Both the position numbers and the translations under genes were made by a program. Shown here piece after piece: positions 9,194-52,118 of a DNA stretch of 64,000 nt. The notes below the pieces were generated by a model. It saw only the letters and a program-made list of their open reading frames with translations. It made no database searches and was not told where the DNA came from. Location of the stretch: contig NC_087378.1 of assembly GCF_963675165.1 (NCBI RefSeq), forward strand, positions 8,242,809 to 8,306,808. The letters are read 5' to 3'. Position 1 is the stretch's first letter; the number at the start of each line of letters is the position of its first letter. This DNA is from Halichondria panicea. Its lineage: Eukaryota; Porifera; Demospongiae; Suberitida; Halichondriidae.

Positions 9194-9493
9194 CTTACAA
9201 TAATTCATTGTGTATCACATGCAACGTTGTGTTTGTGCCTCCCGCTATGACTGTGCATACACAAATAAGTTGATTTTTATTATGACCTCACAATGATCAT
9301 AATCACATGCATAATTAATTGTTTTGCACTGCACCTTATTAATCTATGTGACTGTGCATGTGCATATAAATGTTGCTGTTACTTGGAAATGGGAGAGGCT
9401 GCTGCTCACTGACTATAAATGTAAAATATGTAGGGACAGGAATGCATGCACTCCTGCATGGTATAGGATTATAGCAGCTATAGCTAAACAAGG
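9194..9493. other. Intergenic MRNIP 3' end to TRAF cluster
   Basis: AT-rich 3' flank of MRNIP, then the proximal promoter of the first TRAF-like copy. That promoter includes a variant of the cluster's shared G-rich element at 9385-9408. Confidence 0.6.
9385..9408 (+). promoter_or_regulatory. Shared upstream element, TRAF-like copy 1 (variant)
   Basis: GGAAATGGGAGAGGCTGCTG followed by CTCA, about 109 bp before the ATG. It is a diverged form of the element GTGGGAGGGGCTGCTCA found upstream of copies 2, 4 and 5. Confidence 0.55.
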
Positions 9494-10794: not shown

Positions 10795-11275
10795 TTTTAC
10801 CTGTCCATTTATATATTGCGTTGTGTTTGGTCATACTTAAAATTTTAATATTGCCAGTAATTTTTGCAAGACAGACTGAGTCTAGCCTGGAATTAAAGAT
10901 TGCCAATGCTGGGCTACATTGAGCTTATTTCTTTTTACAAATTGCTAGATCTAGTAGGCCTAGCAAGCTAGCTAAAGATTCTAGACTCGCAAACCGTCAC
11001 CTTTTTTGCAGGCAAACTGTTCGCCTGCAACAGTGAGGGCTTGTGAGTCTACGAGATTCTGGGCTGAGGTTAGCCTCCTTCACCGGCCACTTCCCTAGCG
11101 GGAAGTGCGGCCTGGGATCGAGGCTAGGCTGAGGTGAGCTTTCAGACCAGCCCCACCCCTCTTCTGCAGTAACTTTGTTGAGTGTTGAGTCAGCACTGTG
11201 GCTTATATTTGGAAGTGGGAGGGGCTGCTCAAAACAACATTTAGCCCTCGATTTAGCCTGATCAAAAAGACAAGG
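10795..11275. other. Intergenic, TRAF-like copies 1 to 2
   Basis: Contains a repeat-family end (CCTGGGATCGAGGCTAG at about 11111-11127, also at 13963-13979) and a block CTTTCAGACCAGCCCCACCC (about 11140) that recurs upstream of copy 4. It ends with the shared G-rich element at 11211-11231. An upstream in-frame ATG at 11198 exists but lies before that element and is not conserved in the paralogues. Confidence 0.6.
11211..11231 (+). promoter_or_regulatory. Shared upstream element, TRAF-like copy 2
   Basis: GGAAGTGGGAGGGGCTGCTC plus A, 65 bp before the ATG. The same string with at most one or two changes lies upstream of copies 4 and 5. It is conserved in sequence and place, so it is likely a core promoter or activator site; GC/KLF-like binding is a guess. 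Confidence 0.6.
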
Positions 11276-12787: not shown

Positions 12788-12880
12788 TTTTTAGATGTGA
12801 TTGTGTACGTATTAATTTTGGTGATGGTCATTTTACATTTGCTTTGCTCACTAGCTACAATGTAATTTTGTAGCCTCTAC

Positions 12881-13292
12881 ACAGGCTCTCCTTTTTCTGT
12901 TCTTTATCACAATCGTTCAATAAGATAAAATACTGTATTAATCGTTCAATGAGATAAAATACGGTATTAATTGGAGGAATAAAGAAAGAAATAGACGTAG
13001 AGTTAGGATAAGGCCACTCCAAGTGATACTCTGGTTTCTGGTCCACCGCCCGCATCAGATTTTATTCTATCTCATTATTGGATTTCTATCTCATTATTTC
13101 TACTACGCATGCGCAGAATGGTCCATGTGGTACAAAATAGTGTGATAATGATATTCATTTGCAAAATAATGAGATTCATAAGGTGAAATTGATAATGACA
13201 TAATGAGAAAAGCCGCCCGCCCGCATGCAATTAGAAAAACTTCAGGACCAGAAACCAGAGTGTCACTTGGAGTGGCCTAAAGGAGAGCCTGT
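12881..13292. mobile_element. MITE-like foldback element with interrupted left arm
   Basis: The left arm pieces ACAGGCTCTCCTTTT (12881-12895) and 13012-13044 (starting GGCCACTCCAAGTGATACTC) pair with one continuous right arm at 13245-13292. The inner 33-bp arms differ at one position. The left arm is split by about 116 bp holding a duplicated TTCAATAAGATAAAATACTG / TTCAATGAGATAAAATACGG unit, so a later insertion or expansion broke it. No transposase is encoded. Confidence 0.8.
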
Positions 13293-13763
13293 ATCGGGAA
13301 GTCGCGTGAGGGTAGAAGGGTGGTAGAAGGGTGAAAATGAGCGTGGGCATGCTGAGCTAGAGATGTTGGACTGCCCACGCAGAGATCTATGACTAATAAA
13401 ACTTTGCCTCGTCTCGGCCATGGAGCCGTGTATCTGTCATGATCCCACTATAGCCAGCTATACCTTAGGCTTAGCTAGATGATCTACTAGTTATGTGTTC
13501 AGATTCTATCAGACTATCACCTTTTCTTGCATGCTATTATATAGTCTACTGATAGTATAGATCAAGAATAGCTTAGTCATCATTATCATATAGCAGGTAG
13601 CTACTGCCACCAGAGCTGGCCACGCTGGTTCTCTGATCTGACTTGCAGCACAGCTTGGTGGTTGTCTCAGTACAGTCTTATTAACTCTGAATGCGTGGGA
13701 GAATATCTTACGTCACGATTGTGGGCTACATATCGCCCATGTTCATAAAAATCCTTGTGGATC

Positions 13764-13833
13764 ACTAGTTGGGCGTGGCCCACCCTGGACGCGAACGTAC
13801 GTTCGCGTCCAGGGTGGGCCACGCCCAACTAGT
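13764..13833. repeat. Perfect 70-bp palindrome with no loop
   Basis: Every base from 13764 (ACTAGTTGGGCGTGGCC...) pairs with its mirror up to 13833, with the centre between 13798 and 13799 (CGT|ACG). It is GC-rich, in contrast to its surroundings. GTGGATCAC flanks it as a direct repeat at 13757-13765 and 13832-13840, overlapping the outer ends of the arms. Confidence 0.92.
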
Positions 13834-13853
13834 GGATCACGCGATTTCCCACA

Positions 13854-13967
13854 CCAGGCCTTACTTTTTCTTAACTGTACGCCCATTTCTTTCTTTGCTG
13901 CCTCACTATGTCTTTCTTATGATTTTATGGATGAATAGTGACAACAGCAAGAAAAAGTAAGGCCTGG
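13854..13967. mobile_element. Short foldback (MITE-like), about 114 bp
   Basis: AGGCCTTACTTTTTCTT (13856-13872) and AAGAAAAAGTAAGGCCT (13949-13965) are exact inverted repeats, with CC/GG extensions. The interior is unrelated to any coding family. Confidence 0.75.
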
Positions 13968-14180
13968 GATCGAGGCTAGTAATTTTGTGCAATGTTTCCT
14001 AAATTGGAAACACTTGTCATTCCCAGACCGATTTGTTTCTAAAATAACGCTAGGTAGATGTGCTAATCACATAAAAATATTATTCAGTGTTAAAAAAAAA
14101 AGCACGTGGCCACTTCTTAGATTTTGTAATCTGTAGTTTCGAGGACAAAGATGAGACGTAGACAGAAAACTAGGACTAGG

Positions 14181-15653
14181 ATGAGTACGAGTAGGAGTCA
14201 AGACAATCCTACTGATCTGAAGAGCCAATCATACAGTCACCAGGATGGATTTGAGATCTCCTTTGTGGAACAGCCTCCGAAAGAGCTACCACTAAAGTGC
14301 TCTATTTGCCTGGAGCTTCTCACTGACCCCTGTATCCTTGACTGTGACTGTGGGAACAACTTCTGTAAAGTGTGTATTGAGAAGGTCAAGAAGAACGGCT
14401 ATCCTTGTCCCCTATGCCAGCAGAAATTTACGACCATCCTCCCCAACAAGCAGCTACAGCGCACCCTCAATGGGCTAATGATCCACTGTCCCCACAGGGC
14501 GGATGGCTGCTCCTGGATGGACGAACTTAGCAAGCTCAAGAAGCACATCAATCAAATGCCATCCAACGAGACAAGACTAGAAGGCTGTGGGCGCACTGAT
14601 GTGTTGTGTCAATACTGCAAGAAGTTCATTTCTCGTCAATACATCCCTACACACGAAACTAAGACATGTCCCAAGAAGCCGTACACTTGTCAGTATTGTG
14701 GTCTCTCCTCTGTCCTCGATGACATCAGAGAAAAGCACTGGCTCGTCTGCCTCCATTTCCCTGTCCCCTGTCCATACGAGTGTGGGAAGAGACTCCAACG
14801 CCAGAGCCTTGAGCTTCATATGGAGAAAAAATGTTTGCTGACCCCTCTACAGTGCGGGTTCCGATATGCTGGTTGTGAGGTAGAGCTACCTCGGCAAGAC
14901 ATGGCCAATCATCTGAGGGATAGCATCGTGGATCACATGACTTTGATGTCCCTCAAACACAGGGAGGACAGAAAGGAAGTTAGTGCATTGAAGGAAGAAT
15001 GTGCTGATTTGAAGGAAGAGAACAAACGTTTGCAGTCTCAATTGGCTGTTGTTAATAGTGAAACTCAAAACTTGAAATTTAAAGTGGTAAAATTGGAGAT
15101 GCAATTGGATCACCAAGCTAGTGCTGTTGTTCCCCCTGTACAATCGTCGCCTCGGGCACCCCTAGTTGTCCCCCCTGTACAACCACCTTCTTCTAAAGTA
15201 CCTCCAGTGAAACTTGTGGTTACTGACGTGAAACAACTCAGACTCCTGAGAGATGACTGGACTTTTGAGCCATTTTACTCGAGAGGTGGCTACAAGATGG
15301 TATTGAATGTTTATCCGTATGGTAATCAATGTGGCTCTGGTACTCATCTTTCTGTGTTCATCCGTCTCGTCCAAGGAGAGTATGATCAGCAACTGCAGTG
15401 GCCTTTCCTTGGGAAAGTAACAGTCACACTAGTGGATCAGAGACTGGGAAGACACAAAACAGAGACATTGTACTACCATAGTTGGAGTAACTGTGGTGCA
15501 CGAAGGTTCAACACTCTTACTAATGCACATGGATGGGACACGTTCATTGAGCATAAGTACCTCCCTCCCAACTATTTGAAAAACGATTGCCTTGTGTTCC
15601 GTATTGACGATATCAAGTACACGACATCAAGCGATGAGAACTGGTTATTTTGA
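14181..15653 (+). CDS. TRAF-like protein copy 3
   Basis: Same architecture as copy 2: RING (CSICLELLTDPCILDCDCG), TRAF zinc fingers with CQYCKKFISRQYIPTHE and CPYECGKRLQRQ, coiled coil, then MATH (PVKLVVTDVKQL, YSRGGYKMVLNVYPYG, PFLGKVTVTLVDQ). From ATG 14181 (MSTSRSQDNPTDLKS) it is 490 residues. An in-frame ATG at 14151 would add ten Arg-rich residues not seen in the paralogues. A Pro-rich hinge with VVPPVQ repeats separates the coiled coil from MATH and is shared with copy 1, which makes these two closest relatives. The C-terminus differs from the others (YTTSSDENWLF). The gene is intronless. The RING His position is Asn (CGNNFC). Unlike copies 2, 4 and 5 it has no shared G-rich element upstream, so its expression may differ. 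Confidence 0.88.
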   Translation: MSTSRSQDNPTDLKSQSYSHQDGFEISFVEQPPKELPLKCSICLELLTDPCILDCDCGNNFCKVCIEKVKKNGYPCPLCQQKFTTILPNKQLQRTLNGLMIHCPHRADGCSWMDELSKLKKHINQMPSNETRLEGCGRTDVLCQYCKKFISRQYIPTHETKTCPKKPYTCQYCGLSSVLDDIREKHWLVCLHFPVPCPYECGKRLQRQSLELHMEKKCLLTPLQCGFRYAGCEVELPRQDMANHLRDSIVDHMTLMSLKHREDRKEVSALKEECADLKEENKRLQSQLAVVNSETQNLKFKVVKLEMQLDHQASAVVPPVQSSPRAPLVVPPVQPPSSKVPPVKLVVTDVKQLRLLRDDWTFEPFYSRGGYKMVLNVYPYGNQCGSGTHLSVFIRLVQGEYDQQLQWPFLGKVTVTLVDQRLGRHKTETLYYHSWSNCGARRFNTLTNAHGWDTFIEHKYLPPNYLKNDCLVFRIDDIKYTTSSDENWLF

Positions 15654-15900
15654 TTGTATTGTTAGGTTTGATTGATTATGATCTGCTGCCTGTTATTATT
15701 GTTCTCCTGTTGGATATTGAGTATCAAACAATGACTTTACAAAATTTAATTATATATAGTAGCTGTGTTTGAGCATAGATACACGTATCTATGGTTTGAG
15801 CTTTCAGACCAGCCCCACCCCCCTCTTCTGCTGCACTGACCAGTGGGGCTAAATAATTATACCTGGAAGTGGGAGGGACTGCTCAAAACATAACAAAGAG
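15654..15900. promoter_or_regulatory. Spacer and promoter, TRAF-like copies 3 to 4
   Basis: A 247-bp spacer. It contains CTTTCAGACCAGCCCCACCC (about 15801), repeated from upstream of copy 2, and the G-rich element GGAAGTGGGAGGGACTGCTC plus A at 15865-15885, which ends 16 bp before the ATG. Confidence 0.6.
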
Positions 15901-17406
15901 ATGAGTACCAGTCAAGAAACCCTTAACCCTACTGATCTGAAGAGCCAATCATACAGTCATCGCGATGGATTTGAGATCTCCTTTGTGGAACCCCCGAAAG
16001 AGCTGCCACTAAAGTGCTCTATTTGCCTGGAGCTTCTCACTGACCCCTGTATCCTTGACTGTGACTGTGGGAGCAACTTCTGTAAAGTGTGTATTGAGAA
16101 GGTCAAGAAGAACCACTATCCTTGTCCTCTATGCCAGCAGCAATTTACGACTATTTTCCCCAACAAGCAGCTACAGCGCACCCTCAATGGACTAATGATC
16201 CACTGTCCCCACAGGGCGGGTGGCTGCTCCTGGATGGACGAACTTGGCAAGCTCAAGCAGCACCTCAATCGAATGCCATCCAGCGAGACAAGACTAGAAG
16301 GCTGTGGGCACACTGATGTGTTGTGTCAGTACTGCAAGAAGTACATTCTTCGTAAAGACATCCTTACACACGAAACTGAGACATGTCCGAAAAAACCGTA
16401 CACTTGTCAGTATTGTAGCCACCCCTCTGTCCTCGATGACATCAGAGAGAACCACTGGCTCGTTTGCCCCCAGCTCCCTGTCCCCTGTCCATACGAGTGT
16501 GGGGAGAGGCCCCAACGTCAGGGCCTCGAGCTTCATGTGAACAAAAAATGTTTGCTGGCCCCTGTTCTGTGCGATTTCCGGTACGCTGGTTGTGAGGTGG
16601 AGCTATCTCGACGAGACATGGCCAATCATCTGAGGGATAGCATCGCAGATCACATGACCTTGATGTCCCTCAAACACAGGGAGGAAGTTAGCTCATTGAA
16701 GGAGGAGAACCAACTTGTAAAGCAAGAATGTGCTGATTTGAAGGCCAGTTTTGAGGCTGAAGTTCGGTTGCTGAAGATTGAGAGTGAACAGAAGATGAAT
16801 AATAGCCTCGCAGATGTGAGAAAAGATTGTTACATCAGTTTACAGTGTAATCTCGATGACCGCGTTGAAGAATTGGTGTGTCAAATGGATGACCTCAAGG
16901 CAGAGATACAGTCAGAGACGTCCCAAGCTGCCGCCTCATGTGTTCAGCCTTCACTGTGTAGAGTACCTCCTGTGGAAATTGTGGTTACAAACGTGAAACA
17001 TCTCAGACAGCAAAGAGATAACTGGACTTCTGAACCATTTTACTCGAGAGGTGGCTACAAGATGGTGTTGAAGGTTCTCCCGTATGGTGATCAAGATGGC
17101 TGTGGTACTCATCTTTCTGTGTACATCTATATAATCAAAGGAGAGTACGACCATCAGTTGAAGTGGCCTTTTTTGGGGCAAGTATCTATCACACTAGTGG
17201 ATCAGAGACTGGAAAGACATAAAACGAATGTAATGGCCGTCACCCGTGAGAACAGTGATAATATTGCACGAAGATACAACAACACTCTTACTGGTGGATT
17301 GGGATACCCCACATTCATTGAGTATAAGTACCTTTCCCCGAACTATTTAAAAGACGATTGCCTTGTGTTCCGTATTGACGATATCAAATACATGTACAAC
17401 TGGTGA
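15901..17406 (+). CDS. TRAF-like protein copy 4
   Basis: 501 residues from ATG 15901 (MSTSQETLNPTDLKSQSYSH). It has a RING (CSICLELLTDPCILDCDCGS), TRAF-type zinc fingers (CQYCKKYILRKDILTHE, CQYCSHPSV, CPYECGERPQRQ, CDFRYAGCEVELSR), a coiled coil (VSSLKEENQLVKQECADLKA onwards) and a MATH domain (PPVEIVVTNVKHL, YSRGGYKMVLKVLPYG, PFLGQVSITLVDQ) ending KYMYNW like copies 2 and 5. It is a single open frame with no introns. Its zinc-finger half is nearest to copy 5 (RKDILTHETETCPKKPY in both), pointing to stepwise tandem duplication or gene conversion. Predicted role: adaptor or E3 ligase in immune or developmental receptor signalling, by family only. Confidence 0.9.
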   Translation: MSTSQETLNPTDLKSQSYSHRDGFEISFVEPPKELPLKCSICLELLTDPCILDCDCGSNFCKVCIEKVKKNHYPCPLCQQQFTTIFPNKQLQRTLNGLMIHCPHRAGGCSWMDELGKLKQHLNRMPSSETRLEGCGHTDVLCQYCKKYILRKDILTHETETCPKKPYTCQYCSHPSVLDDIRENHWLVCPQLPVPCPYECGERPQRQGLELHVNKKCLLAPVLCDFRYAGCEVELSRRDMANHLRDSIADHMTLMSLKHREEVSSLKEENQLVKQECADLKASFEAEVRLLKIESEQKMNNSLADVRKDCYISLQCNLDDRVEELVCQMDDLKAEIQSETSQAAASCVQPSLCRVPPVEIVVTNVKHLRQQRDNWTSEPFYSRGGYKMVLKVLPYGDQDGCGTHLSVYIYIIKGEYDHQLKWPFLGQVSITLVDQRLERHKTNVMAVTRENSDNIARRYNNTLTGGLGYPTFIEYKYLSPNYLKDDCLVFRIDDIKYMYNW

Positions 17407-17520
17407 TTCTTTCGCAATAATTCCTGTGTGTAGCTATTTGTGCTGTGTGATATGATTGGGTTCATGTGATTACAATGTACATAGAGTGGCAGCCATAGAG
17501 TTGCATGCGCTAGCTTAGTT

Positions 17521-17541
17521 GAAAGTGGGAGGGGCTGCTCA
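17521..17541 (+). promoter_or_regulatory. Shared upstream element, TRAF-like copy 5
   Basis: GAAAGTGGGAGGGGCTGCTC plus A, 108 bp before the ATG at 17629. It is the same element as at 11211 and 15865. Confidence 0.6.
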
Positions 17542-17628
17542 ACGCTCAACCACGTGGACGCAGCTCAAGACAAGAAACGAAACAACACCTAGTACCTAGC
17601 CTAGCCTAGCCTGTACTACAATCTAGTG

Positions 17629-19050
17629 ATGAGTAGTCTAACCAGCAGCTCATATCATCACGATGGATTGCAGATCTCCTTTGTGAAGCAGCCTTCTCGA
17701 GAGCTCCAGCTAGAGTGTTCTATTTGCCTGCAACTGCTCACCGACCCATCTGTCAGCTGTGACTGTGGGAGCAGCTTCTGTAATCCATGCATTGAGTCTG
17801 TCAAGAGAAGACAAAATCCTTGTCCCCTGTGCAACCAACTATTTACCACTATTCTCCCCAACAAGCAGCTACAGCGCACCCTCAATGGGCTAACGATCCA
17901 CTGTCCCCACAGGGCGGATGGCTGCTCCTGGATGGACGAACTTAGCAAGCTCAAGCAGCACCTCAATCGAATGCCATCTGGCGAGACAAGACTAGAAGGC
18001 TGTGGGCACACCGATGTGTTGTGTCAGTACTGCAAGAAGTTCATTCTTCGTAAAGACATCCTTACACACGAAACTGAGACATGTCCGAAGAAACCGTACG
18101 CTTGTCAGTATTGCGGCCATTCGTCCATCTTCGATGACGTCAGAGAGAACCACTGGCTCGTCTGCCCCAAGCTCTCTGTCCCCTGTCCATACAAATGTGG
18201 GGAGAGGCCCCAACGTCAGGGCTTGGAGATTCACGTAAACAAAAAATGTTTGCTGGTCCCTGTTCTGTGTGATTTCCGGTACGCTGGTTGTGAGGTGGAG
18301 CTATCTCGACGAGACATGGCCAATCATCTGAGATATAGCATCGCGGATCACATGACCTTGATGTCCCTCAAACACAGAGAGGAAGTTAGCTCATTGAAGG
18401 AAGAGAACCAACTTGTAAAGCAAGAATGTGCTGATTTGAAGGCCAGTTTTGAGGCTGAAGTTCTGTTTCTGAAGATCGAGAGTGAACGGAAGTTGAATAA
18501 TAGCCTCGCAGATGTGAGAGGTGATAGCAACAACAGTGTACAGTTTGATCAGAAATCAGACACTCCATCAGAGCCTCCCCAAACTACCGTCGTGTGTGTC
18601 CAACCTTCACTGCTTGTGGAACTACTGGTCACTCGCATGAAGCAACTCAGGCGCCGACGTGTTGAGTGGACTTCTGAACCATTTTACTCGAGAGGCGGCT
18701 ACACGATGGTGCTGGGTGTGTACCCATATGGTAATCAAGGTGGCTATGGTACTCATCTTTCTGTGTACATCTACATCATCCAAGGAGAGTATGACCAGCA
18801 ACTAAACTGGCCCTTCCTCGGCACGGTGACTATCACACTAGTGGACCAGAGACTGGGAAGAAACAGAATGGATACCTTGTGCTACACTCGTGACAATAGT
18901 CAAGATGGAGCACGGAGATACAACAGCACCCTCACCAATGGATGGGGATGGGAGAAGTTCATTGAATTGAATTACCTTTCTTCGTACTATTTGAAGGACA
19001 ATTGTCTTGTGTTCCAAATTAACGATATACAATACAAGTACAACTGGTGA
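17629..19050 (+). CDS. TRAF-like protein copy 5
   Basis: 473 residues from ATG 17629 (MSSLTSSSYHHDGLQISFV). A GTG one codon earlier is not needed. The RING is the most diverged in the cluster (CSICLQLLTDPSVSCDCGSS, CNPCIESVKRRQNPCPLC), missing two residues before CDCG. The TRAF zinc fingers, coiled coil and MATH (VELLVTRMKQL, YSRGGYTMVLGVYPYG, PFLGTVTITLVDQ) follow, ending QYKYNW. The hinge between coiled coil and MATH is short. It is intronless and preceded by the shared G-rich element. It is the last copy in the array; beyond it lies PRMT9 on the other strand. Confidence 0.9.
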   Translation: MSSLTSSSYHHDGLQISFVKQPSRELQLECSICLQLLTDPSVSCDCGSSFCNPCIESVKRRQNPCPLCNQLFTTILPNKQLQRTLNGLTIHCPHRADGCSWMDELSKLKQHLNRMPSGETRLEGCGHTDVLCQYCKKFILRKDILTHETETCPKKPYACQYCGHSSIFDDVRENHWLVCPKLSVPCPYKCGERPQRQGLEIHVNKKCLLVPVLCDFRYAGCEVELSRRDMANHLRYSIADHMTLMSLKHREEVSSLKEENQLVKQECADLKASFEAEVLFLKIESERKLNNSLADVRGDSNNSVQFDQKSDTPSEPPQTTVVCVQPSLLVELLVTRMKQLRRRRVEWTSEPFYSRGGYTMVLGVYPYGNQGGYGTHLSVYIYIIQGEYDQQLNWPFLGTVTITLVDQRLGRNRMDTLCYTRDNSQDGARRYNSTLTNGWGWEKFIELNYLSSYYLKDNCLVFQINDIQYKYNW

Positions 19051-38400: not shown

Positions 38401-41228
38401 GTAGGTGTAGGGCTCCTAAAGCATGCGTGTAACTTTATATCTTAAGTAATGTCCATGCACACAATGTATAAGGATGTTACGTGCAGTTATCCCAGAAGCT
38501 TATAAAAGGAGTTGTGTTACACTTTATCTTCATTCAACTCAACGGATGGTTACATGCATGATGGCTACTAACATACGAGCACTGCAGACTATCAGCTTCT
38601 TGCTGATGCTAGCAATCACTGTGAATGCTAGGGTGGTTCCAGAGCAAGTACGAGGACAAGAAGACAATGGGGAAATGTCGAGAAAGTTTCTTTACGATAT
38701 CAAACAAGGAAGTATCGATCAAATGAAGAATGAAATATTGGCGCTGCTACTGAATGATCAAGAAACTATAGCTCAAAGCCTCTTTGAAGAATACCTCGAC
38801 ATTCCAAAGAAAGAGATGGACCCTGCATACAGACCTAGCACTGAAACCAGAAGAAGCTCAAGCTCAAGATGGCATGTACAATCCAGATCTCTTTGAAGGA
38901 AACCTCAAGATTTCAGATAAACAGATAAAGGCTGTGTACGGAACGTCTTCATAAGTAAGAAAAGTGACTTGTGTTCAAATAGTTAAGCTAGGTTATCCTA
39001 ATTATGCATTGGATCAAATGTATAACTATTATGCTTCATTTGTACAGAATAGTTGCATGTACACTGTAAGCTGTATACACTCCCACACTGTGAGCCACAC
39101 TCCCACACTGTGTTGGTAGGCAAGTTCACACTAGCAAGGGGCATTTTAAAATATCAATGAACTACTAGTATACTCCCGAAAAAGTATACACTATCAGGCC
39201 ACCCATTGTTGCTCCAATTTAGAAAACCTCAAGTCTATAATTATTATGTACGTTAATGCAGGCTGAGCTTCAGAAGGCTACAAGCGTCAATGCGCTGCTA
39301 TGGGCTGGCGGAAAAGTCTACTACGAAATGGACCCAGACTTAGTTCCAAATTTTCTGCAAACTATCATACGAGAGGCAATGGACGAATATGAGCAACACA
39401 CGTGTCTCAAGTTCTACCTTAAAAACTCTAGGAGTACACAGTTTATTCGTTTTCAATATACTTCGGACGGGTGTTATTCTACTTTGGTTGGGAAAGAGGG
39501 CGGTATACAAACAATCAATATAAATATAGGTTGTGCAGAGCATAGTGGACTTTTACATGAAATCGGTCATGCGATCGGTTTTTGGCATGAGCAAAGTAGA
39601 CCGGACAGAGACAACTACCTTACGATAAACTGGGACAATATCGAAGCAGGCCAGGTATCTGATTATCAATTTGAATTACGGCACGAAGTTGATTACCGGG
39701 GTGAAGAGTACGACTATGCTTCAATTATCATTATGACGTGTACGCCTTCAGCAAGAATGGACAGCCCACAATGGCCGTTAACAATTTGGTTAGATACCGG
39801 CAACAAGGACGCCCTCATCTTGGAATTCCATGGTTTGGGTTAAAACACCTTAGTGCGGGTGACATCAGGCAGGTGAATAAAATGTACAAGTGCTACAACC
39901 CATACGGTTTCTGGGGATTGATAAATGTTCATGTATATAAAGCGACTGGGCTACCTAAGGGCACGTACTATGCCCAAATAACTGCTTATGGCACCTACGG
40001 TACAAAGAAGATCTATGAATCACGAGACTCCGAGAATAATTCTCCAGCTGTCTATACATGGGAGGATGGGTTTTCAATCTCATATTTTATATCAGCCTGG
40101 CGTTACTTCGAGATAAGGATAAAGAATTTGCAGGGGGAAGATGTGATTGGTCGGCAAACCATATGGATAGAAAAATCAAGAGAAAAAGTTGAAGATGCGT
40201 ACTGTATGAAAGATGAGCAAGATCAGAATCGCAACAAATGTGTCTTTTTCAACTACGAAATCAAGGGATTTTAAAATATAACGAACAAGTATTATGTCTT
40301 ACTTACTGTATTATAGGCTGACACTTGATTGCTAGTAGTCATGAACTATTCAACATGTAGACTGAACTCCAGTTAGAGTAGAGTATAAAACAGATGTTGT
40401 GTTTAGAGTGTATGGAAATAATGTTCCAGTTTGCATGGTTGTCACTCTGTTAGGTATTCCTAGAAGTACGTACATGTGGCTCAGTGTACGTGCACACACT
40501 GTAAGCTATAATTAGGAATCTCTAAAAATGGTAATACTCTCGCTAATCCAAATAGCTTGTTCAGATTAGTGAAGGGGAGGAGTGTAGTTACACACGATAG
40601 TGATGTGTATGCACAACTCACTAAGTACAGTAACTCTTATACACCTATCAATGTGTCGCCCCACTCCCCCCCCCCCCCCGGGAGGGGTCGGGCTAACATG
40701 GGGGATTTGACCATACCTCAGATCAAATTCCCCCTGGTGGGGGAAGGATTCTGTGTTCAAATCCCCAAGTCAACAGGGGGTTTTTGAGCCCCAAGCAGTT
40801 GCACACGTCAAAACAGGTTATAAAAGCAGCCTTTACTACGCAAAACCAGGTCAAATCCCCCATGGCAAATATTTCAGGTCAAATTAGAGTCAAATTCCCC
40901 CGTATGTCCCGGGGGGGGGGGATAGTGGGGCAACATGTTGATAGGTGCATTATCTACACGTACCGTTGTGTCCCTCGAGGGTCTGGTTCATGGAGAGGTT
41001 ACTAGGGGCAGCAAGACCCTTGAGTTTAGCATCCTTGGAGGCCAGTGTCTCCAGTTGTAGTACCTTGAGTAGTCCATCCTCCCCACCACACGCTATCCAA
41101 CCCTTGCTACTGTGCCATGAGATGGTTGCCAGGGCAGAGTCATTAGGGATAGCAATCTAACAAAGGGAACTCTAAAGGAAGTATGCATGTAGGATCCATC
41201 TCACCTTCTTACTCAGATAGACTAGCAT
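30779..41228 (-). CDS. WDR35: WD repeat protein 35 / IFT121 (WDR35), using the proximal copy of exons 1-2
   Basis: WDR35/IFT121 is a subunit of the IFT-A complex for retrograde ciliary transport and ciliary membrane cargo entry. Exon 1 (41205-41228) encodes MLVYLSKK. Exon 2 (40964-41156) encodes [15 protein letters not shown] through [15 protein letters not shown] to [14 protein letters not shown]. Exon 3 follows 3.2 kb away (ending near 37680) with [20 protein letters not shown] and [20 protein letters not shown], in phase (G|GA). WD repeats continue to about 35.3 kb. The TPR-like part has [55 protein letters not shown]-type sequence and AFIKLESL. The C-terminal zinc module ([44 protein letters not shown]) stops at 30779. 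Intron 2 contains an astacin-like gene on the other strand. A second, almost identical copy of exons 1-2 lies at 46716-46980. Confidence 0.92.
31968..32162. mobile_element. Dispersed foldback family copy 3 (WDR35 intron, truncated)
   Basis: Only one full arm is clear: CTTTCAGAAAATCATAAAAT then a CCATCAGAACTCTAGTTACA border. The central part has GGCCTATGGCCTATAATTAT. Shorter than other copies. Confidence 0.65.
32599..32886. mobile_element. Dispersed foldback family copy 4 (WDR35 intron)
   Basis: The best-preserved copy. The borders are GGCCATAACTTTAGTTCTGT and AACTCTAGTTACAGAGCC, the arms carry ATTTTATGATTTTCTGAA and its mirror, and the centre is a palindrome around GACCATGGGCTATATATAAC. Confidence 0.8.
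33966..34037. repeat. Dispersed repeat, copy a (WDR35 intron)
   Basis: GCTATAAAAGGCCGTGTTGT followed by GCATTCAAAGTGCTGGCTAA and GTTAAGTGGCTAC. A closely similar block lies at 41882-41950. It contains a TATAAAAG string, but no gene was recognised downstream of either copy. Confidence 0.75.
35990..36134 (-). repeat. Tandem copies of a 5' splice-site segment, WDR35
   Basis: On the minus strand the exon ending at 36135 is followed by GTGAGGGGGTGGTGTGTGTG, and the GTGAGGGGGTGG start recurs at least twice more within the intron. Donor-like sequence is therefore reiterated. Confidence 0.72.
36889..36968 (-). repeat. 19-bp tandem copies of a 5' splice site, WDR35
   Basis: The minus-strand unit GTGAGTGTGTGTAGTGGGC repeats three to four times, starting exactly at the donor of the exon that ends at 36969. 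Every full unit carries GTGAGT. Confidence 0.82.
38034..38311. mobile_element. Foldback element, copy a, about 278 bp
   Basis: ACATCAAAGTCAATG and CATTGACCTTGATGTGT form the ends, and GCATTCTGGAATGTG / CACATTCCAGAATGC the inner arms. About 125 bp of it (38059-38182) reappears inverted at 42094-42220. Confidence 0.75.
38501..38508 (+). promoter_or_regulatory. TATA box of astacin-like copy 1
   Basis: TATAAAAG in the context AGAAGCTTATAAAAGGAGT, 45 bp before the ATG at 38546. The same context precedes copies 2 (42378) and 3 (44455). It shows that in-frame ATGs further upstream are not the true starts. Confidence 0.75.
38546..40274 (+). pseudogene. Astacin-like metalloprotease copy 1 with C-terminal C2-like region, several lesions
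   Basis: Exon 1 (38546 to about 38953) encodes a signal peptide ([18 protein letters not shown]) and a propeptide. Exon 2 (from 39262) encodes the astacin catalytic domain (peptidase M12A): [17 protein letters not shown], then the zinc site [19 protein letters not shown]. It continues into a 120-residue C-terminal region ([20 protein letters not shown] to [11 protein letters not shown]) resembling a C2 domain. Compared with copies 2 and 3 it has one extra base in the propeptide (about 38835), a TAA in place of GAA at the exon 1 donor (about 38952), and one base lost at the Met-turn (ATTATCATTATG versus ATTATGCATTAT, about 39731). It is probably non-functional as a secreted protease. It is nested antisense in WDR35 intron 2. 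Confidence 0.78.
40275..40963. other. Spacer between astacin-like copy 1 and WDR35 exon 2
   Basis: The 3' flank of copy 1 is followed by a block at 40547-40640 that is repeated at 46612-46708, then the 309-bp inserted element. Confidence 0.7.
40641..40949. mobile_element. 309-bp MITE with TTAT target duplication
   Basis: The terminal inverted repeats are ACACCTATCAATGTGTCGCC plus CCAC on the left and the reverse complement of TGCACCTATCAACATGTTGC plus CCCAC on the right. TTAT flanks both sides (40637-40640, 40950-40953). The duplicated segment at 46.7 kb shows the same site empty (AACTCTTATCTCACGTACCG). The interior has long C and G runs and no reading frame of interest. Confidence 0.9.
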
Positions 41229-41549
41229 GGTGTGGCCCTCAGATCATACACTCATACAATGCTGGCATGGAGGTTCTGTACACTGTCAGCTAGAGGTCGT
41301 CTGTGAAGCTACCATGGCTACTATCAGGCAGATCCGCCCCCTTTCATCGCACATCCAGTGAGGGTCGTTGTTAGAACAAACTTCACTGCTGCAACAGCTT
41401 TTTCCTATAGACGACCTTTCTGCCGAGTTTTCACTTTTATAAGGGAAATAGGTTTCGCTTTCAGTTAATTATTATAAAAGCGAAAACATGGCCTGGGATC
41501 AGCTGTAGTATACATGACTTGTAGTAATTATTTTTTTACACACAAACGG

Positions 41550-41840
41550 CTAAACCACTATATATGCACACAATATCTAAGAGTCACTCTGAGTCTCATG
41601 TCGTCATGATAACTGGTGGATTGTTGTGATTGTGTTCAGCCTCTATCTCAACACCCCCTGAACTGGTGGTATCCTCTCCTCTGGGGGGCTGCCAATGTCA
41701 ACTGGGCCTCTGCGGGGGGGTTACTGTTCTCATCGTCACAAAGACCCGCCCCCCTGTGCCATTCACAGCCTCAACTGTAGGGACACAAGTAGTTCCAATC
41801 ACACATGCACACACAGTGTCCATCTCATTAGCATGAGCGG
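41550..41840 (-). pseudogene. Duplicated 3' fragment of BLOC1S5
   Basis: From CACACAAACGGCTAAACCAC onward it tracks the BLOC1S5 3' UTR and last exon (50610-50760): TTCAGCCTCTATCTCAACAC, CCCCTGAACTGGTGG. It then jumps to the segment of the upstream exon (GACCCGCCCCCCTGTGCC, TTCACAGCCTCAACTGTAGG; 51178-51220) and ends with GTGTCCATCTCATTAGCA (51822-51839). Introns and most of the coding repeat are missing, so this is a degraded copy, not a gene. Confidence 0.82.
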
Positions 41841-41881
41841 ATAAAAGATGCATGCATGCACAAGAGTGGAATGTACTGATG

Positions 41882-41950
41882 GCTATAAAAGGCCGTATTG
41901 TGCATGAAAAGTGCTGGCTAAGTCAAGTGGCTATACTTTGTTTCTAGGTA
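41882..41950. repeat. Dispersed repeat, copy b
   Basis: GCTATAAAAGGCCGTATTGT, GCATGAAAAGTGCTGGCTAA, GTCAAGTGGCTA: the counterpart of 33966-34037. Confidence 0.75.
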
Positions 41951-42025
41951 ACAACTACACATGTGACTTCCATGCATCACAGTATTCCGTGCTGAGTAAG
42001 ACTGACAGGCTTTGATGTTACAGAC

Positions 42026-42235
42026 CAGAAATGTGATGGGGTTCAGTTTGATAGTCGCTACTACTATATCCATCACAAGCAATTAGCATTACGTGACAAA
42101 CTAACTTTGATGTTCCAGACTGTAGTAGTTGGAACCATTAGATAGGTGGCTACAGATGGCACATCTTTTTCACCGGCACTTACATGTAACATTAACAACA
42201 CATTCCAGAATGCATGGAAATGACTTTGGCGTCAT
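42026..42235. mobile_element. Foldback element, copy b (inverted relative to 38034-38311)
   Basis: GACAAACTAACTTTGATGTT through GGCACTTACATGTAACATTA is the reverse complement of 38059-38182 with a few differences. It flanks the duplicated WDR35/astacin block on the opposite side. Confidence 0.78.
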
Positions 42236-42422
42236 TATTATTCACTACTGACTATACCTAATTCCACCCACCTAATTGCAGACTCCTCGGCATGCAATGT
42301 AACTGTATAACTCTGTTGTAATGTCCATCGTGTACAACTTTGATCTAAGGATAGTAATTCAATTTTTGTCAGAAGCTTATAAAAGGAGTGGTGTTACATT
42401 TCATCTTCATTCAACTCAACGG

Positions 42423-43958
42423 ATGGTTACGTGCATGATGGCTACTAATGTACGAGCACTGCAGACTGTCAGCTTCTTGGTGATGCTAGCAATCATTGTG
42501 AATGCTAGGGTGGTTTCAGAGCAATTAGGAGAGCAAGAAGACAATGGGGAAATGTCGAGAAAGTTTCTTTACGGTATCAAACAAGGAAATATCGATCAAA
42601 TAAAAAAAGAAATGTTGGCGCTGTTACTGAATGATCAAGAAACCAATGCTCAAGCTCCCTCGCAATTACAAAGCCTTTTTGAAGAAGACCTCGACATTCC
42701 AAAGAAAGAGATGGACCCTGCAACTAGCAAACCAGAAGAAGCTCAAGCCCAAGATGGCATGTATAGTTCAGACCTCTTTGAAGGAGACCTCGACATTCCA
42801 CAGGAAGAGATAGACGCTGCGTACGGAACATCTTCAGAAGTAAGTCAAAAAATTAAGTGACTTGCATGTAAATGTGTTCAAGATACCTTTTAGTTTAACG
42901 TTATCATACGCATTAATTGTGTAATCTTCATAATTATATTCAGGCCACCTGTTGTTGAGAAAAGCTCCACTGCAACAAGTCTATATGTACATAATTATGT
43001 ACTTTACTGCAGGCTAAGCTTCAGAAGGCTACAAGTGACGTCAATAAACTATGGGAACAAGGAGTCGTCTACTACGACTTTGATATCTCAGTTCCAAATT
43101 TTCTGCAAAATATTATACAAGGCGCAATGGACGAATATGAGCAACACACGTGTCTAAAGTTTGAGCTTAGATCCCCTACAGCTACTTGGACTACACAACA
43201 ACATATTACTTTCAAAAGCTCCGGCCAATTTTGTTCTTCTAACTCGGTTGGGAGAGCGATTGATTACATGCAGAAAATTAATCTTCTGAGACTAGGTTGA
43301 GCAAAGTAGACCGGACAGAGACAACTACCTTACAGTAAACTGGAACAACATCGAAGCAGGCAAGGCATATCAATTTGAATTACGCCACAAAGTTGATTAC
43401 CAAGGTGAAGAATACGACTATGCTTCAATTATGCATTATCCATAGGATGCCTACAGTAAGAATGGACAGTTCACAATGGCCGTTAACAATGACAATAGAT
43501 ACAAGAAACAAGGAAGCCCTACTATTGGGCATAGACCACACCTTAGTCCGGGTGACATCAGGCAGGTGAATAAAATGTACAAGTGCTACAACCCATCCGG
43601 TGACTGGGGAAGGCTACGTGTTCATGTAAAAAAAGCAACTGGGCTGCGAGTTTTTGGCAGGGACATATACTGTATCAAAATTACTGCCTATCACACTGAT
43701 GGAAAGGAAACGTATACATCAAGACAAGGAGTGTTTACTTATCCAGATGAATTTTCATGGGAAAATGTGTTTATAGCCAAATCGTATTATCAACACTGGC
43801 GTTACTTCGAGATAAGGATAATGTATGGGTGGAGAGATGTGATTAGTCGGCAGCAAACCATATGGGTCAAACCTCCAGGAGTGCCAATGAATGATTCGTA
43901 CTGCATGGCAGATGGGAATCACAACATTTGTGTCTACTTGTACTACAAAGTTTATTAA
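42423..43958 (+). pseudogene. Astacin-like copy 2, zinc-binding motif deleted
   Basis: Exon 1 (42423 to about 42840) is intact: a signal peptide (RALQTVSFLVMLAIIVNA), propeptide repeats ([28 protein letters not shown]) and a good GTAAGT donor. Exon 2 starts at 43013 with AKLQKATSDVNKLWEQG. At about 43297 roughly 65-70 bp are missing relative to copy 3, removing the whole HExxHxxGxxH zinc site and shifting frame. The sequence resumes at GCAAAGTAGACCGGACAGAG. A second lesion is an in-frame TAG at 43443-43445 in the Met-turn segment. The C-terminal C2-like region (WGRLRVHVKKATGL to CVYLYYKVY) is open to 43958. It cannot encode an active protease. A C-terminal fragment could only be made from a separate start. 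Confidence 0.82.
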
Positions 43959-44499
43959 CAAGATTACTTAGCTCAGTCGCATACTCTTTATATATGCTGT
44001 AGCATTTTTTTAATTAGGCTGACTTGATTATGCATGGTTGTCACTCTGTTATAGGTATTCCTAGAAGTACGTACATGTGACTCAGTGTATATGCACACGC
44101 TGCATGTAAGCTTATATACTTTTGTCACCGTGTTCAGAGCACAGAGAATTAGCTACAAAAACTTTAAGCCTTGCTACTTGTGTACAGTTTTATATAGCAT
44201 ATAAGCTACTAGAAATGTGATGGGATGACTGGAGTAAACTACGTACACACACATGCATGATTAGCCTTACATGTTCCCGAGCTGTAATAGTTCTGAACCA
44301 TTAGATAAGAGAATGTAGGGAGGTAAGGTACATTAGCTATGGTAGGTGTTTACTCCTATGGTAGGTGTTTACTCCTAGGCATGCGTGTAACTTTATATCT
44401 TAATGTCCATGCACACAATGTATAAGGATGTTATGTGCAGTTATCCCAGAAGCTTATAAAAGGAGTGGTGTTACACTTCATCTTCATTCAACTCAACGG
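43959..44499. other. Spacer between astacin-like copies 2 and 3
   Basis: 3' flank similar to that of copy 1 (GGTTGTCACTCTGTTA, TATTCCTAGAAGTACGTAC), a direct repeat of TATGGTAGGTGTTTACTCCT (about 44338-44377), and the TATA box of copy 3 at 44455-44462. No other gene was seen. Confidence 0.7.
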
Positions 44500-46254
44500 A
44501 TGGTTACATGCATGATGGCTACTAACGTACGAGCACTGCAGACTGTCAGCTTCTTGCTGATGCTAGCAATCACTGTGAATGCTAGGGTGGTTTCAGAGCA
44601 AGTACGAGGACAAGAAGACAATGGGGAAATGTCGAGAGAGTTTTTCAAACAAGGACATATTGGTGATGGTGACATTGATCAAATAAAGAAAGAAATTTTG
44701 GCGCTGCTACTGAATGATCAAGAAACCAAAGCTCAAGCTCCCTCGCAATTGCAAAGCCTGAAGACCTCGACATAAAAAAAGAAGAAATGGACCCTGAATA
44801 CAGACCAACTAGCAAACCAGAAGAAGCTCAAGCTCAAGATGGCATGTACAATCCAGATCTCTTTGAAGGAGACCTCAAGATTTCAGATAAACAGATAAAG
44901 GCCGCGTACAGAAAGTTTTCAGACGTAAGAAAAGTGACTTGTGTTCAAGATACTTTTGTAGTAGGTATCATAATTATGCATTGGTTTATTATCTGTATAG
45001 CATATTTGCATGTACACTGTAAGCTATAATATTATACACTCCCACAACAATATATTGTGTTGGTAGGCAAGTTCACACTTGCAAGGGGCATTTTAAAAAA
45101 TCAATGGGAAAAAAGCTAAATTATATAGTGAGCTTTGACTGTAAACTAGCCGAAAAAGTATACCCGACTATTCAGGCCACCCATTGTTGTTCCAAAGTGT
45201 CCAATTAGAAAACCTCAAGTCTATATAATTATGTACTTTACTGCAGGCTGAGCTTCAGAAGGCTACAAGTGACGTCAATAAACTATGGGAACTAGGATAT
45301 GTCTACTACGACTTGGATGAATCAGTTGACTATCATACGCGAACTATCATACGAGGTGCAATGGACGAATATGAGCAACACACGTGTCTAAGGTTCTACC
45401 TTAAAACCCCTACAACTACTTGGATTACACAGTTTATTCATTTTCAAAGCAGCGACCGAGGGTGTTATTCCACCTCAGTTGGGCAAGCACTCAGTATGCA
45501 AACAATCAATCTTGACAGCATAGGTTGTGCTACGCATAGTACAGTTCTACATGAAATTGGTCATGCGATCGGTTTTTGGCATGAGCAAAGTAGACCGGAC
45601 AGAGACAACTACGTTACGATAAACTGGGACAATATCAAAGCAGGCAAGGAACATAATTTTAATTTACGCCACAAAGTTGATTACCAAGATGAAGAGTACG
45701 ACTATGCTTCAATTATGCATTATCAATTGGATGCCTTCACCAGAAGTTATCAGAAAACGTTGAGCATTAACAATTTTGAGAAATTAATTGAACAAGGATT
45801 CCCTGCTGTTGGGCACGGAGAACACCTCAGTCCAGGTGATATCAGGCAGGTGAATAAACTGTACGATTGTTATAACCCATCCGGTTACTGGGGAAGACTA
45901 CGTGTTCATGTACATAAAGCGACTGGGCTACCTTCTGACACGTACTATGCTGACGTGGCTGCTATTTACACTTACGGAACTACTGGTTATGGAGTGCAGT
46001 CGTTTCCATCAACAAAATTGTCCAATAATTATCCAGCTGACTATACATGGACATATGTACATACAACCGCTAATCAAAAAAACTGGCGCTACTTCAGGAT
46101 ATGGATAACGAATGAGGAGGGAGATACAGTGATTAGTCGGCAAACCATATGGATCAAAACTTCAGGAGTAAAAGTTGAAGATTCGTACTGCTTGAAAGAT
46201 GAGCAAGATGTGGAGCGCATGAAATGTGTCTACTTCAACTACGAAATCGTTTGA
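44500..46254 (+). CDS. Astacin-like metalloprotease copy 3 with C2-like C-terminus; catalytic exon intact, propeptide frameshifted
   Basis: Secreted zinc endopeptidase by family (M12A). Exon 1 (44500 to about 44930) has the signal peptide [18 protein letters not shown] and the propeptide. Seven bases are missing at about 44760 relative to copy 2 (AAAGCCTGAAGACC versus AAAGCCTTTTTGAAGAAGACC), giving a TAA soon after; the original frame resumes downstream ([20 protein letters not shown]). Exon 2 (45247-46254) is fully open: [20 protein letters not shown] for zinc binding, the Met-turn [26 protein letters not shown], then a C2-like region (LRVHVHKATGLPSDTYYADV to CVYFNYEIV). It is the only copy with a complete active site. 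Whether an alternative splice bypasses the frameshift is unknown. Confidence 0.75.
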
Positions 46255-47242: not shown

Positions 47243-50200
47243 TCACAACTCTGCATGAAGAGAGAGGAGTATAAAATGCACACAATTATTATTATTATTA
47301 TAGTACTCACCTTTTGCTAGAATACATATATTTTGTGCAAGTGACACATTTGATTGTCGGAGCATAACATCGACCAATATCTTGTAGGTGGCATTGAAAC
47401 CATTTTTCTCGTGCCACCTGTTCAAAACTTCTCGTGCACCATATTTTGCAGCGAATGGATCGGTTTTAATAGCAAAGATGTCAGTGGGGCTTAGTTCTAA
47501 GTCATCAGCCAGTATCTTCCAGTTAAAAATGTGTTCACTTAATGTTCTGAGTTTTTTTGGTGAGCATTCTCTTTCCAGGTCTTGCTGTGTAACACCAGTA
47601 CGTTGAATCAGATCATTGCATGTCACAGAGGTTGCAACTAGAAATGTGTTACACATACGGTAAATTAAGACACATGCACAATACCCAGAAAGTACCTTCA
47701 ACTGATTCACTCTGAGATGAGCGTGACGACAGGGAAGGAGATCTGGAAGGTGGAACTGATAGATTGAACTTTAGTCCGTCTGGGTTTGTTCCTCGAACTT
47801 CAAACGCACACTCCAGTGGTCGCAACCGCTCAGGAGTGCCATGGTTGCGTTGTATGGTTAGCACAATCCGTGGGGGGTAACTTAAGGTCATTTGTTTGTA
47901 TCTTTTATTCCTAAGCGGCAAATCAATGACATCTCGTTGGATCTGGACAATACATGAAGAACTTCAGTATGACATTGTGGATTATTAACTTACAACACAA
48001 GGGCTTATGGCTGGTGTGATGGTGGTGTCTTCAATGGTTTGGGGTATTGTAAGCTCAATCTCGTCTTCTGACAATTGGGTATGACACTGAATGTTCTCAA
48101 ATTCTTCACTTCCATACATCTTGCTCAGATAGGTTTCCAAACTCTACATTAATTTATAATCGTTAAATGTAACAATGTAAATTTTACCTTCTGGTAGACT
48201 TCATGATCTAAGGAAACTGCAAAGATGGCATGGCAAATTGGCAGGAGGACAACAGGCTTGTGAAGGCAGACCATATAGAAATTCTTCTGATCTATGGATT
48301 GATTCATTATGATGTGTACACTGTACATGTATATAGCGTAACATACTTCTCCTCTTGCGTCTTGCTAGTATTCCAAAGCAGAAGTGGCCCACATCCACAA
48401 CTACTTCCTGTTCTCCTGGCACAGTGTGAACTTCAGCAGAATCGTCTTGGACAAATTTCCATCTTGATACTTCATTACGAATGTCAGGTGTATCAAAACT
48501 GGTGAAAAAGGCAAGTTCATCTGCATCCTCGATAACGGCGAAAGTCTTTATTTTCAGCTGAACTTTTCTATGGAATACGCATGGTGGGTAGAGCAGGTAC
48601 ACAGGGCTAATTGGTACATAGCCACGACGCAGCTTAAAGGGCCCCTTCAAACAGGCCTAAACAGTTATGGGGACCGAATCGCCAGGAATGATAGCTTTCC
48701 GGGGGATGCTGACCGTGATTCCTTCTCCAATTATGACTGCACCGTCGTGATCAACTTGCTTTTGGGAACATGTTTTTGAAAATAGGACTCCAGGATAATT
48801 TAGCTTAACATCAGCAATATTCAGAACACTGAACTTAACATCACTTGAAGCTGCAAAAACAACTGAAAAACAAGTTTATAATAAATGTACACAGAATTAC
48901 CAATTGAAACAGGCTTTGCCCCATCAACAGAAGCCATTGAATCTGTGTCGCTAGCAGTACCGATCCCTGAGTCTGGCATGGTGGATGCTTGAGAGGAGAG
49001 CTTCCCAGAACTTGACTCGGAGGGTGCTGTGGCATCATCTTCATCAGTGTCGCTGCTATCAGAGGTATCAGAGGCCACTGTACGCTTGCGATGGTCGTTA
49101 CCTTCGTTACCTTCGCTATCTGAGTCAGAATCTGAAGGATACATTGGTGCCATTGAGTCTACTTCCACTTCTGATTCGTCATCTGATTGACAGGATGCAG
49201 TGGATGGTTCCTTTTCTTCATCGCTGCTAGAGTCAGAATCACTGCTGGGTAGGATGACTTCTTCATCAGAATCAGAGTCTGGATTTTGTAGGTCAACGTC
49301 AAAATCTGAAGCCATACTTTGTGTGAGGAACGTGCCAATTGTGGATCCAGTCGATACATGTGGTGTGCTTGGATTGATAACCATCTTTTTCTTAACTATC
49401 TTCTTCCGTACTTTTCTCGTCTGGGCCTGATTTCGTTGTAGAAGTTGTGGAGAAATAGCAGCTTGTGGAGGAATAGCAGCTTGTTGGTAGAAAATAATAG
49501 GAGGGATAAATGGTGGTAGCAAAGGAACCGTTGGATGAGGTGGTACAAATGGTTTGGCATTTGGATCTAATGGTTTGCGTTTGCGCTTGTGTTCAGATTT
49601 TCGGAATTTCGGATGAATGTATGGATAACGAACTAGGTCGTTGCAGTTAAAGCATCTGACATCTTGTGTAGCATGACACCTTTGATAGAATGTACGGTGG
49701 TCACATGTTTCGTTCTGACAAATGTAGCGGCCAATTCCAAACTCTAAATGCCGAGGAAGGGCATCGTATTTCACCTTACACTCATGGCAAGTAGACACAG
49801 CTTTGGTAATGAGAACTACTGTCCACCAGTAGCGATCACAATCTCCACAAGTCCAGTAAGTAAGTCATGTTTTGCCAGGGTAGCTTCGGTCAAGAGGTAA
49901 TTTGATTCAATGCCATCTTTGAGGATTTTGTCTTGATTAGTTTCTTTCATGATTTTCTGGGCTCTCTGTGAATCGCTTAAAACTTTTCGATCTGTGTTTT
50001 TTATTTTATGCTTGGTGAGAGATCCTCGCTGTAAAAACAACAAGAAATTTTATTTTTATATTTTTTATACATTAATAGTTTACCTGACAGAGTTCAAATA
50101 GTATCTGCTCTCTTGTAGAGACTATCTGGCTTCCAATGATTTCAATCCTGAGAATTCTACTTCTCATTTCTTGACATGTGATTTGTGATTGTGTGGACTT

Positions 50201-50432
50201 TCCAATTGCTTTACAGATAGCTGCGACTCGTTGGCTAGTCTGAGTGAGGTACTTTTCTCGTAAGTCCACACGTTCAATATATAACACCTGTGTATATAAT
50301 TATAACATAGATATATAAAGTATATAATACATACGTACGTACATGTAGATAGTATATAATACTGTTTATGTTGTACTATATTAGTAGATATACTGGACTA
50401 TAATTATGTACCTTTTGATTTCTTTTAGCCAT
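47243..50432 (-). CDS. Shiftless-like zinc module fused to ZU5 and Death domain; frame broken twice
   Basis: Exon 1 (50412-50432) encodes MAKRNQK. Exon 2 begins VLYIERVDLREKYL. The next exon has an N-terminal helical region (ESNYLLTEATLAKHD), then WTCGDCDRYWW, CHECKVKYDALPRHLEFG, CQNETCDHRTFYQR and CFNC, and further on NPSTPHVSTGSTIGTFLTQ before an acidic Ser/Asp tract. This order and spacing match SHFL/C19orf66, an interferon-induced inhibitor of programmed -1 ribosomal frameshifting. It continues into a ZU5-type region (GAVIIGEGITVSIPRKAIIP, YVPISPVYLLYPP) and a UPA-like stretch (FAVSLDHEVYQK). The Death domain (WKILADDLELSPTDIFAIKT, AREVLNRWHEKNG) ends LAKEL at 47243. Two lesions break the frame: a shift near 49850-49867 and an in-frame TAG at 48657-48659. 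Possible explanations are decay, an allele, or assembly error. Confidence 0.78.

Positions 50433-50640: not shown

Positions 50641-52118
<1,478 letters not shown>

Follow-up and report, generated by a model that had tools for sequence, protein, structure and literature searches.

A gene family in a sponge genome that joins a SHFL-type zinc module to ZU5 and Death domains

SHFL (C19orf66/RyDEN/IRAV, family UPF0515) is in human a stand-alone protein of 291 amino acids, and work on it in vertebrates treats it as an inhibitor of recoding. ZU5 domains that stand ahead of a death-fold domain are found in another set of described proteins, including CARD8, NLRP1, PIDD1 and UNC5. Here we describe a gene from the sponge Halichondria panicea in which a zinc module of the SHFL type precedes a ZU5-type region and a Death domain. 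It lies in a stretch of 64,000 nucleotides of contig NC_087378.1 (positions 8,242,809 to 8,306,808, hereafter the window), on which an earlier note had remarked.

UNC5, ankyrin and MACC1 are ZU5-UPA-DD proteins in which ZU5 is followed by a C-terminal Death domain; of these UNC5 is not known to be cleaved. PIDD contains two ZU5 domains, and PIDD1 has a leucine-rich repeat (LRR) sensor ahead of ZU5 and Death. According to passages of PMC9213247, CARD8 is ordered as a disordered N-terminus, ZU5, a cut, UPA and a death fold, and degradation of its N-terminal half releases the C-terminal half. CARD8 and NLRP1 cut themselves at SF/S, the motif in PIDD and Nup98 is HFS, and the residue that initiates cleavage of this kind may be Ser, Thr or Cys (passages of PMC3210808).

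Three domains in one gene family

A UPF0515 search of the genome (131 Mb, 39 contigs) gave six places, namely the gene in the window, two paralogous loci termed L015 and L016, and three places in a further locus, L017. L015, on the minus strand of contig C2, is open throughout and would encode 855 amino acids, with Pfam matches to UPF0515 (E 1.2e-21, 77.8 bits) and, above the cut-off, to ZU5 (E 2.5e-4). L016, on contig C1, has the same domain order as L015 and the window gene; its Death match (E 6e-6) is above the cut-off and its ZU5 match (E 6.6e-4) lies just under it, at 20.3 against 21 bits. Exon 2 of L016 (4535-4739), which encodes the N-terminal domain, is shifted in frame by +4, and a downstream ATG in open frame would still yield most of the protein. 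Allowing for this +4 and for a -22 in the window copy, intron phases are equal at 8/8 positions in the three loci, in which the introns measure 38-257 bases.

We collected 42 database proteins, 37 of them with exon 3 of L015 as query and five that were new among the six returned by the ZU5 domain of P0035. P0035, P0039 and P0041 contain the zinc module and ZU5 within one uninterrupted open reading frame (ORF), with E values of 1.3e-14, 1.5e-13 and 1e-14 for UPF0515 and of 1.7e-7, 9.2e-7 and 8.1e-8 for ZU5, all of the latter above the cut-off. Since these three are absent from the matches in this genome, one or more other genomes must be their source. The agreement of intron phases in two paralogues and the single-ORF fusions elsewhere lead us to conclude, from sequence, that a SHFL-type zinc module, ZU5 and Death are joined in one gene family, as the earlier note had proposed for the window gene.

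The kinship of the zinc module with human SHFL is seen in comparison with the PDB entry 9kbo, which L015 matches with an E value of 3e-14 and profile A8 with one of 4.5e-38. Shared features are the first zinc ribbon, with the pairs C112/C115 and C132/C135, a second Cys set (C155/C158 and C174/C177, numbers counted on the alignment of L015 with 9kbo), an LTEA..L lead-in, the HPSNPHISSGST block and an acidic tract. The alignments to 9kbo take in the lead-in and the STGST block as well as the two zinc sets, and we conclude from this likeness that the fusion module shares its descent and its zinc ligands with SHFL. P0031 and P0033 carry several SHFL modules per chain. No homologue was found with the whole L015 protein of 855 amino acids as query, when the 7998 candidates sharing most words were scored and the query contained long low-complexity stretches, and one GTDB scan and one viral-contig scan gave no relatives.

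A tree of the zinc module was built from 42 rows, comprising 35 database proteins, L015, L016, the window copy, the three L017 ORFs and human SHFL; the other 7/42 database proteins are incomplete, multi-copy or lack a zinc module. The six fusions demonstrated (window, L015, L016, P0035, P0039 and P0041) fall into two subgroups inside one clade of 35 rows (support 83/94), and it is for these 6/35 rows that fusion is established. The clade leaves out human SHFL, P0034, P0036, P0037 and L017, the placement of L017 and human being unsure because of long branches. The tree is most simply read as the outcome of a single old fusion.

The fusion had been supposed to be undescribed, and no description of it was found among the open-access papers listed by the searches (subscription papers and preprints lay outside the search), nor any link of SHFL to ZU5, to a Death fusion or to sponges. 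The terms 'shiftless' and 'death domain' co-occur in PMC11798991, where, in the passages concerned, the death domain is that of DAXX. The accompanying description of SHFL as a stand-alone vertebrate protein was too narrow, as passages of PMC5309953 place homologues in hemichordates and echinoderms, and L017 (4420-6471, minus strand) holds three tandem, compact and apparently stand-alone SHFL-like ORFs on the contig of the window gene, about 100 kb away. The L017 ORFs carry an additional HSCxxC...CPN zinc set.

The copy in the window

The window gene runs on the minus strand from an ATG at 50432 to a stop at 47243 and comprises nine exons, all modelled splice junctions being GT-AG, which matches exactly the interval 47243-50432 of the earlier note. 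Its domains are ordered as SHFL/UPF0515 zinc module, Ser/Asp-rich tract, ZU5-type region and C-terminal Death (Table 1), and the motifs that had been listed (CGDCDRYWW, CHEC, CQNETC, CFNC, NPSTPHVSTGST, then an acidic tract) were all found at the places given. The zinc-ribbon cysteines are complete (8/8), with the third pair spaced CxxxxC. Profile searches had been proposed as a check: exon 3 matches Pfam UPF0515 (PF15135, SHFL family) with E 1.2e-16 and 61.4 bits against a curated cut-off of 29.8, and exon 8 matches Death (PF00531) with E 7e-7, also above its curated cut-off. The outcome for ZU5 was mixed, with L015 passing, L016 just short and the window copy's own pieces not significant in Pfam because the stop codon splits the domain.

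Against PDB death domains, the Death profile A9 scores best with THOC1 (E 3.2e-6) and weakly with Fas, RIPK1, CRADD and FADD. The small domain in exon 2 has no Pfam match above the cut-off; a domain resembling it stands before an acidic tract with DSGIGT and a ZU5 domain in P0040, a protein without the zinc module. Pfam matches below the cut-off (YdaS_toxin, Arrestin_C, NFACT_N, GP180_GOLD, SEN1_barrel, DUF4443, Argos and others) were dropped.

Table 1. Features of the gene in the window and the two lesions of this copy.
Feature	Position	Strand	Basis or remark
Exon 1	50412..50432	-	Start codon, MAKRNQK; GT donor; counterparts in L015 and L016
Exon 2, small N-terminal domain	50084..50287	-	AG/GT borders; 34% identical to its L015 counterpart
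Exon 3, SHFL/UPF0515 zinc module and Ser/Asp-rich tract	48901..50028	-	Change of frame near 49851
Lesion 1, gap of 22 nt against both paralogues	49851..49852	-	Three-CDS alignment (MAFFT)
Eight zinc-ligand Cys: CGDC, CHEC, CQNETC, CFNC	49643..49849	-	Sequence; aligned to 9kbo via L015 and profile A8
CGDCDRYWW	49823-49849	-	Sequence
CFNC	49643-49654	-	Sequence
NPSTPHVSTGST motif (human: HPSNPHISSGST)	49340..49375	-	Acidic tract follows
DSGIGT, beta-TrCP-degron-like, in acidic tract	48956..48973	-	Sequence
Exon 4, ZU5 domain	48347..48862	-	54% identity to L015 ZU5 over query residues 4-145/146
Lesion 2, in-frame TAG in ZU5	48657..48659	-	Alignment; L015 and L016 have Gln (CAA)
HFC at place of HF/S or SF/S autoproteolysis site	48378..48386	-	Putative equivalence, from alignment and position
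Exons 5-7, linker from ZU5 to Death	47696..48291	-	UPA-like by position only; conserved in 3/3 copies
Exon 8, Death domain	47311..47637	-	Core about 47351-47554
Exon 9, last codons and stop	47243..47250	-	Gene model

Relative to both paralogues, the window copy carries a gap of 22 nt, which shifts the frame immediately upstream of the first zinc Cys pair and removes residues that are present in P0005, and an in-frame TAG. Together these mean that ordinary decoding of the copy cannot yield the fusion. The domain order claimed for this locus is thus there, but the copy is broken, which the 'frame-corrected' translations of the earlier note had masked. The other indels of the window copy are net multiples of three relative to the paralogues, allowing for local gap placement by MAFFT, the exceptions being the +4 that belongs to L016 itself and the last exon. 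From the first zinc Cys onwards dN/dS is 0.23 against L015 (701 codons) and 0.29 against L016 (714 codons), at dS values of 2.0 and 1.7 that are near saturation, and one in-frame stop is seen where 300 simulated runs at 25% neutral divergence gave 18.7 on average and never fewer than 9.

These results suggest that the window copy probably went through a long period of constraint and then suffered recent damage, provided that the assembly is correct. We consider it likely that this copy is a pseudogene, or else that its lesions are assembly or allelic errors, and that it has no function of its own; the two lesions, and the single stop and low dN/dS against L015 as signs of constraint before damage, speak for this. 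The database entry P0013 is the protein of the window copy itself and hence offers no independent check on the lesions. Two ways of rescuing the copy were considered and rejected. No X XXY YYZ heptamer was found by script around the frame overlap and the change of frame coincides with the 22-nt gap, which argues against a programmed -1 frameshift, and no AG lies between the stop that bounds the zinc frame on its upstream side and the first zinc Cys, as rescue by splicing would need.

A possible release switch and its rivals

Two short stretches bear on how the fusions may work. The end of ZU5 reads HFC in the window copy, L015, L016, P0035, P0038 and P0040 and HFT in P0039, that is, in 7/7 sequences of the fused clade that can be read at this site, the eighth, P0041, leaving the frame before it. 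Among 17 ZU5 ORFs picked by a script signature from the loci collected in this genome, an xF motif ends the domain in 12, followed by Ser in 10 and by Cys in two (L015 and L016). In the acidic tract, a DSGxx[ST] motif occurs in 28/40 rows of alignment A6, which held 40/42 proteins and was built before the motif was looked for; over the whole collection it is present in 28/42, being exactly DSGxGT in 25/42. Within A6, no other block of six columns in this fast-changing tract is as well conserved as DSGxGT, whose mean top-residue share is 0.82. The higher figure of 27/29 in alignment A8 is biased, as A8 was chosen after the motif had been listed and the proteins dropped from it were mostly those lacking the motif. 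The beta-TrCP phosphodegron consensus is given as DSGXXS in the part of PMC5954166 that concerns it.

Because HF-[C/T] at the ZU5 end and the DSGxGT block together recall CARD8, we favour, with a probability of about 0.4, a reading in which the family is a one-component release switch like CARD8, NLRP1 and PIDD1, with a SHFL input and a Death output. ZU5 would cut itself at HF/C (or HF/T) and the two halves would remain associated. The N-terminal half, made up of the SHFL module, the DSGxGT tract and ZU5, would then be removed by destruction, triggered for example by phosphorylation of DSGxGT or by the SHFL module being engaged or attacked, and the linker-Death half, once free, would nucleate a Death-domain complex. 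Cleavage, degradation, expression, oligomerisation and death signalling of the fusions are all things that we infer. A switch function for the family would be compatible with a window copy that is defunct.

The likeness to the FIIND proteins CARD8 and NLRP1 lies in the order of a disordered or sensor N-terminus, ZU5, an F-nucleophile motif, a further region and a death-fold domain (passages of PMC3210808 and PMC9213247); the fusions differ in having Cys or Thr for Ser and Death for CARD, in a UPA that is unrecognised and in cleavage that is putative. With PIDD1 they share a sensor, ZU5, Death and an HF-nucleophile motif, which in PIDD is HFS (PMC3210808, in part), whereas the fusions have mostly HFC, a single ZU5 and no LRR sensor.

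Several observations weigh against the release switch. As it stands, the copy in the window cannot work as one, and in the full L015 protein the Death match (E 0.0036) is below the cut-off that L016 and the window copy pass. UPA belongs to the freed half of CARD8 and NLRP1, and between ZU5 and Death of the fusions no UPA match was obtained with Pfam and no meaningful one with PDB in the spliced region; this test is blind here, as the UPA model had zero matches in this genome and in 14 control genomes. The His and Glu that are important in CARD8 were not located in the fusion ZU5. The self-cleaving ZU5 proteins described use Ser, as opposed to the Cys or Thr of the fusions. The xF motif is missing in five of the 17 ZU5 ORFs, which are of the C3/C6 type; HCC stands at the end of ZU5 in L004-L006, which the script signature did not pick up, and the sequence in P0042, whose ZU5 is the closest one not in a fusion, is YFNCF. 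As to the acidic tract, its next separate block reaches a share of 0.80, a small margin, the tract is DS-rich, and the block ends in Thr where the degron has Ser. DSGxx[ST] is missing in 14/42 proteins, in three of them through an early end (P0022 and P0027 end in GDSG and P0012 ends before the site), and P0009 has DSGLGI.

A rather unlikely but serious alternative is that the fusions are uncleaved scaffolds, in which ZU5, linker and Death form a closed adaptor like that of UNC5, opened when the SHFL module binds RNA or protein, with no autoproteolysis at all. The ZU5 profile matched only the ZO-1 ZU5 in PDB (2kxs, E 0.0029; 2kxr, 0.0061) and no FIIND, and the C3/C6 type of ZU5 is present in many loci of this genome without the motif, both of which fit such a scaffold. 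The UNC5-like proteins share with the fusions ZU5 and then a C-terminal Death domain, and differ in their N-terminal parts. Against the scaffold stands the possible nucleophile at HF-[C/T] in every readable sequence of the fused clade.

The idea of the earlier note, in which the SHFL module would continue to bind RNA or stalled ribosomes and to inhibit recoding while the Death tail reports it, appears improbable to us. In its favour, the fusions have the zinc Cys and the STGST block in common with human SHFL, and Lys at some of the positions concerned could still bind RNA. In human SHFL, however, mutation of R131/R133/R136 lowers RNA binding and recoding inhibition (PMC8310280, in the part describing these residues), and none of the six fusions has Arg at an equivalent position, the residues being T/K/W in L015, M/K/G in L016, T/H/K in the window copy, E/T/Y in P0035, A/M/H in P0039 and S/M/H in P0041. 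Among the 35 readable of the 42 database proteins, R/R/R occurs only in P0034. Sensing of RNA or ribosomes by the fused SHFL part is therefore doubtful, and the label 'translation-surveillance module' had been carried over from the human protein. A death or signalling response at the other end, as the earlier note envisaged, is plausible.

More of a long shot is an integrated decoy, in which a SHFL copy would have become attached, in a single event in the clade's ancestor, to a ZU5-Death tail that cleaves itself and contains its own degron, so that destruction or mislocation of the bait would free the Death half. The stand-alone SHFL-like genes about 100 kb away on the same contig are possible guarded originals in such a scheme. 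The viral antagonism of SHFL described in passages of PMC13185607 is transcriptional and gives the decoy no support. Finally, that a SHFL-like gene and a neighbouring ZU5-Death gene have been mistaken for one can practically be dismissed: the zinc and ZU5 exons are indeed separated by an intron, which measures 38 bases in the window gene, 257 in L015 and 88 in L016, but the uninterrupted ORFs of P0035, P0039 and P0041 refute this for the family, and domain order and intron phases are alike in three loci.

Genomic setting and the death tail

Death domains occur in at least 150 places of this genome (of 503 candidates, 150 were scored), and 77 places carry a ZU5 related to that of P0042; the ZU5 places are clustered on contigs C3, C6, C8 and C14. 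Parts of PMC8195603 describe architectural variety of Death, TRADD-N and ZU5 in animals that include the sponge Amphimedon, and parts of PMC12909245 describe many Death-domain genes in Dysidea. P0042 itself combines RING-like and zf-TRAF regions with the related ZU5 (E 2.6e-10), which has no Pfam ZU5 match, and in the loci L039 and L043 Kelch, ZU5-like (below the cut-off) and Death ORFs adjoin and are candidates for single genes. P0042 thus shares a related ZU5 with the fusions, and L039 and L043 share the type of tail, whereas their N-terminal modules differ. The presence of other N-terminal modules on these makes the ZU5(-Death) tail look like a shared output cassette. P0042 looks as if ZU5 had replaced the MATH domain of a TRAF, and L043 has NHL repeats in addition. 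In L041 (117-2302, minus strand), ORFs that by eye are retroelement-like adjoin a ZU5-like ORF.

Elsewhere in the window, a tandem array of five ORFs that encode TRAF-type zinc fingers occupies 9488-19047 on the plus strand, about 30 kb from the death-adaptor gene; four of the five also have a MATH domain, and their RING matches are above the curated cut-off in the last ORF only. Tandem astacin metalloprotease ORFs follow at 38450-46254 on the plus strand, the two that were scanned matching Pfam Astacin at E 9.3e-50 and 6.5e-40, and an uninterrupted CA/GT dinucleotide repeat of 513 bases spans 51244-51756.

The finding of a SHFL zinc module on a death tail in an early-branching animal suggests that the module may have begun, or served, as the input of an immune switch. 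With this family, release of the CARD8 type becomes testable with a new type of sensor and with an unusual Cys/Thr nucleophile.

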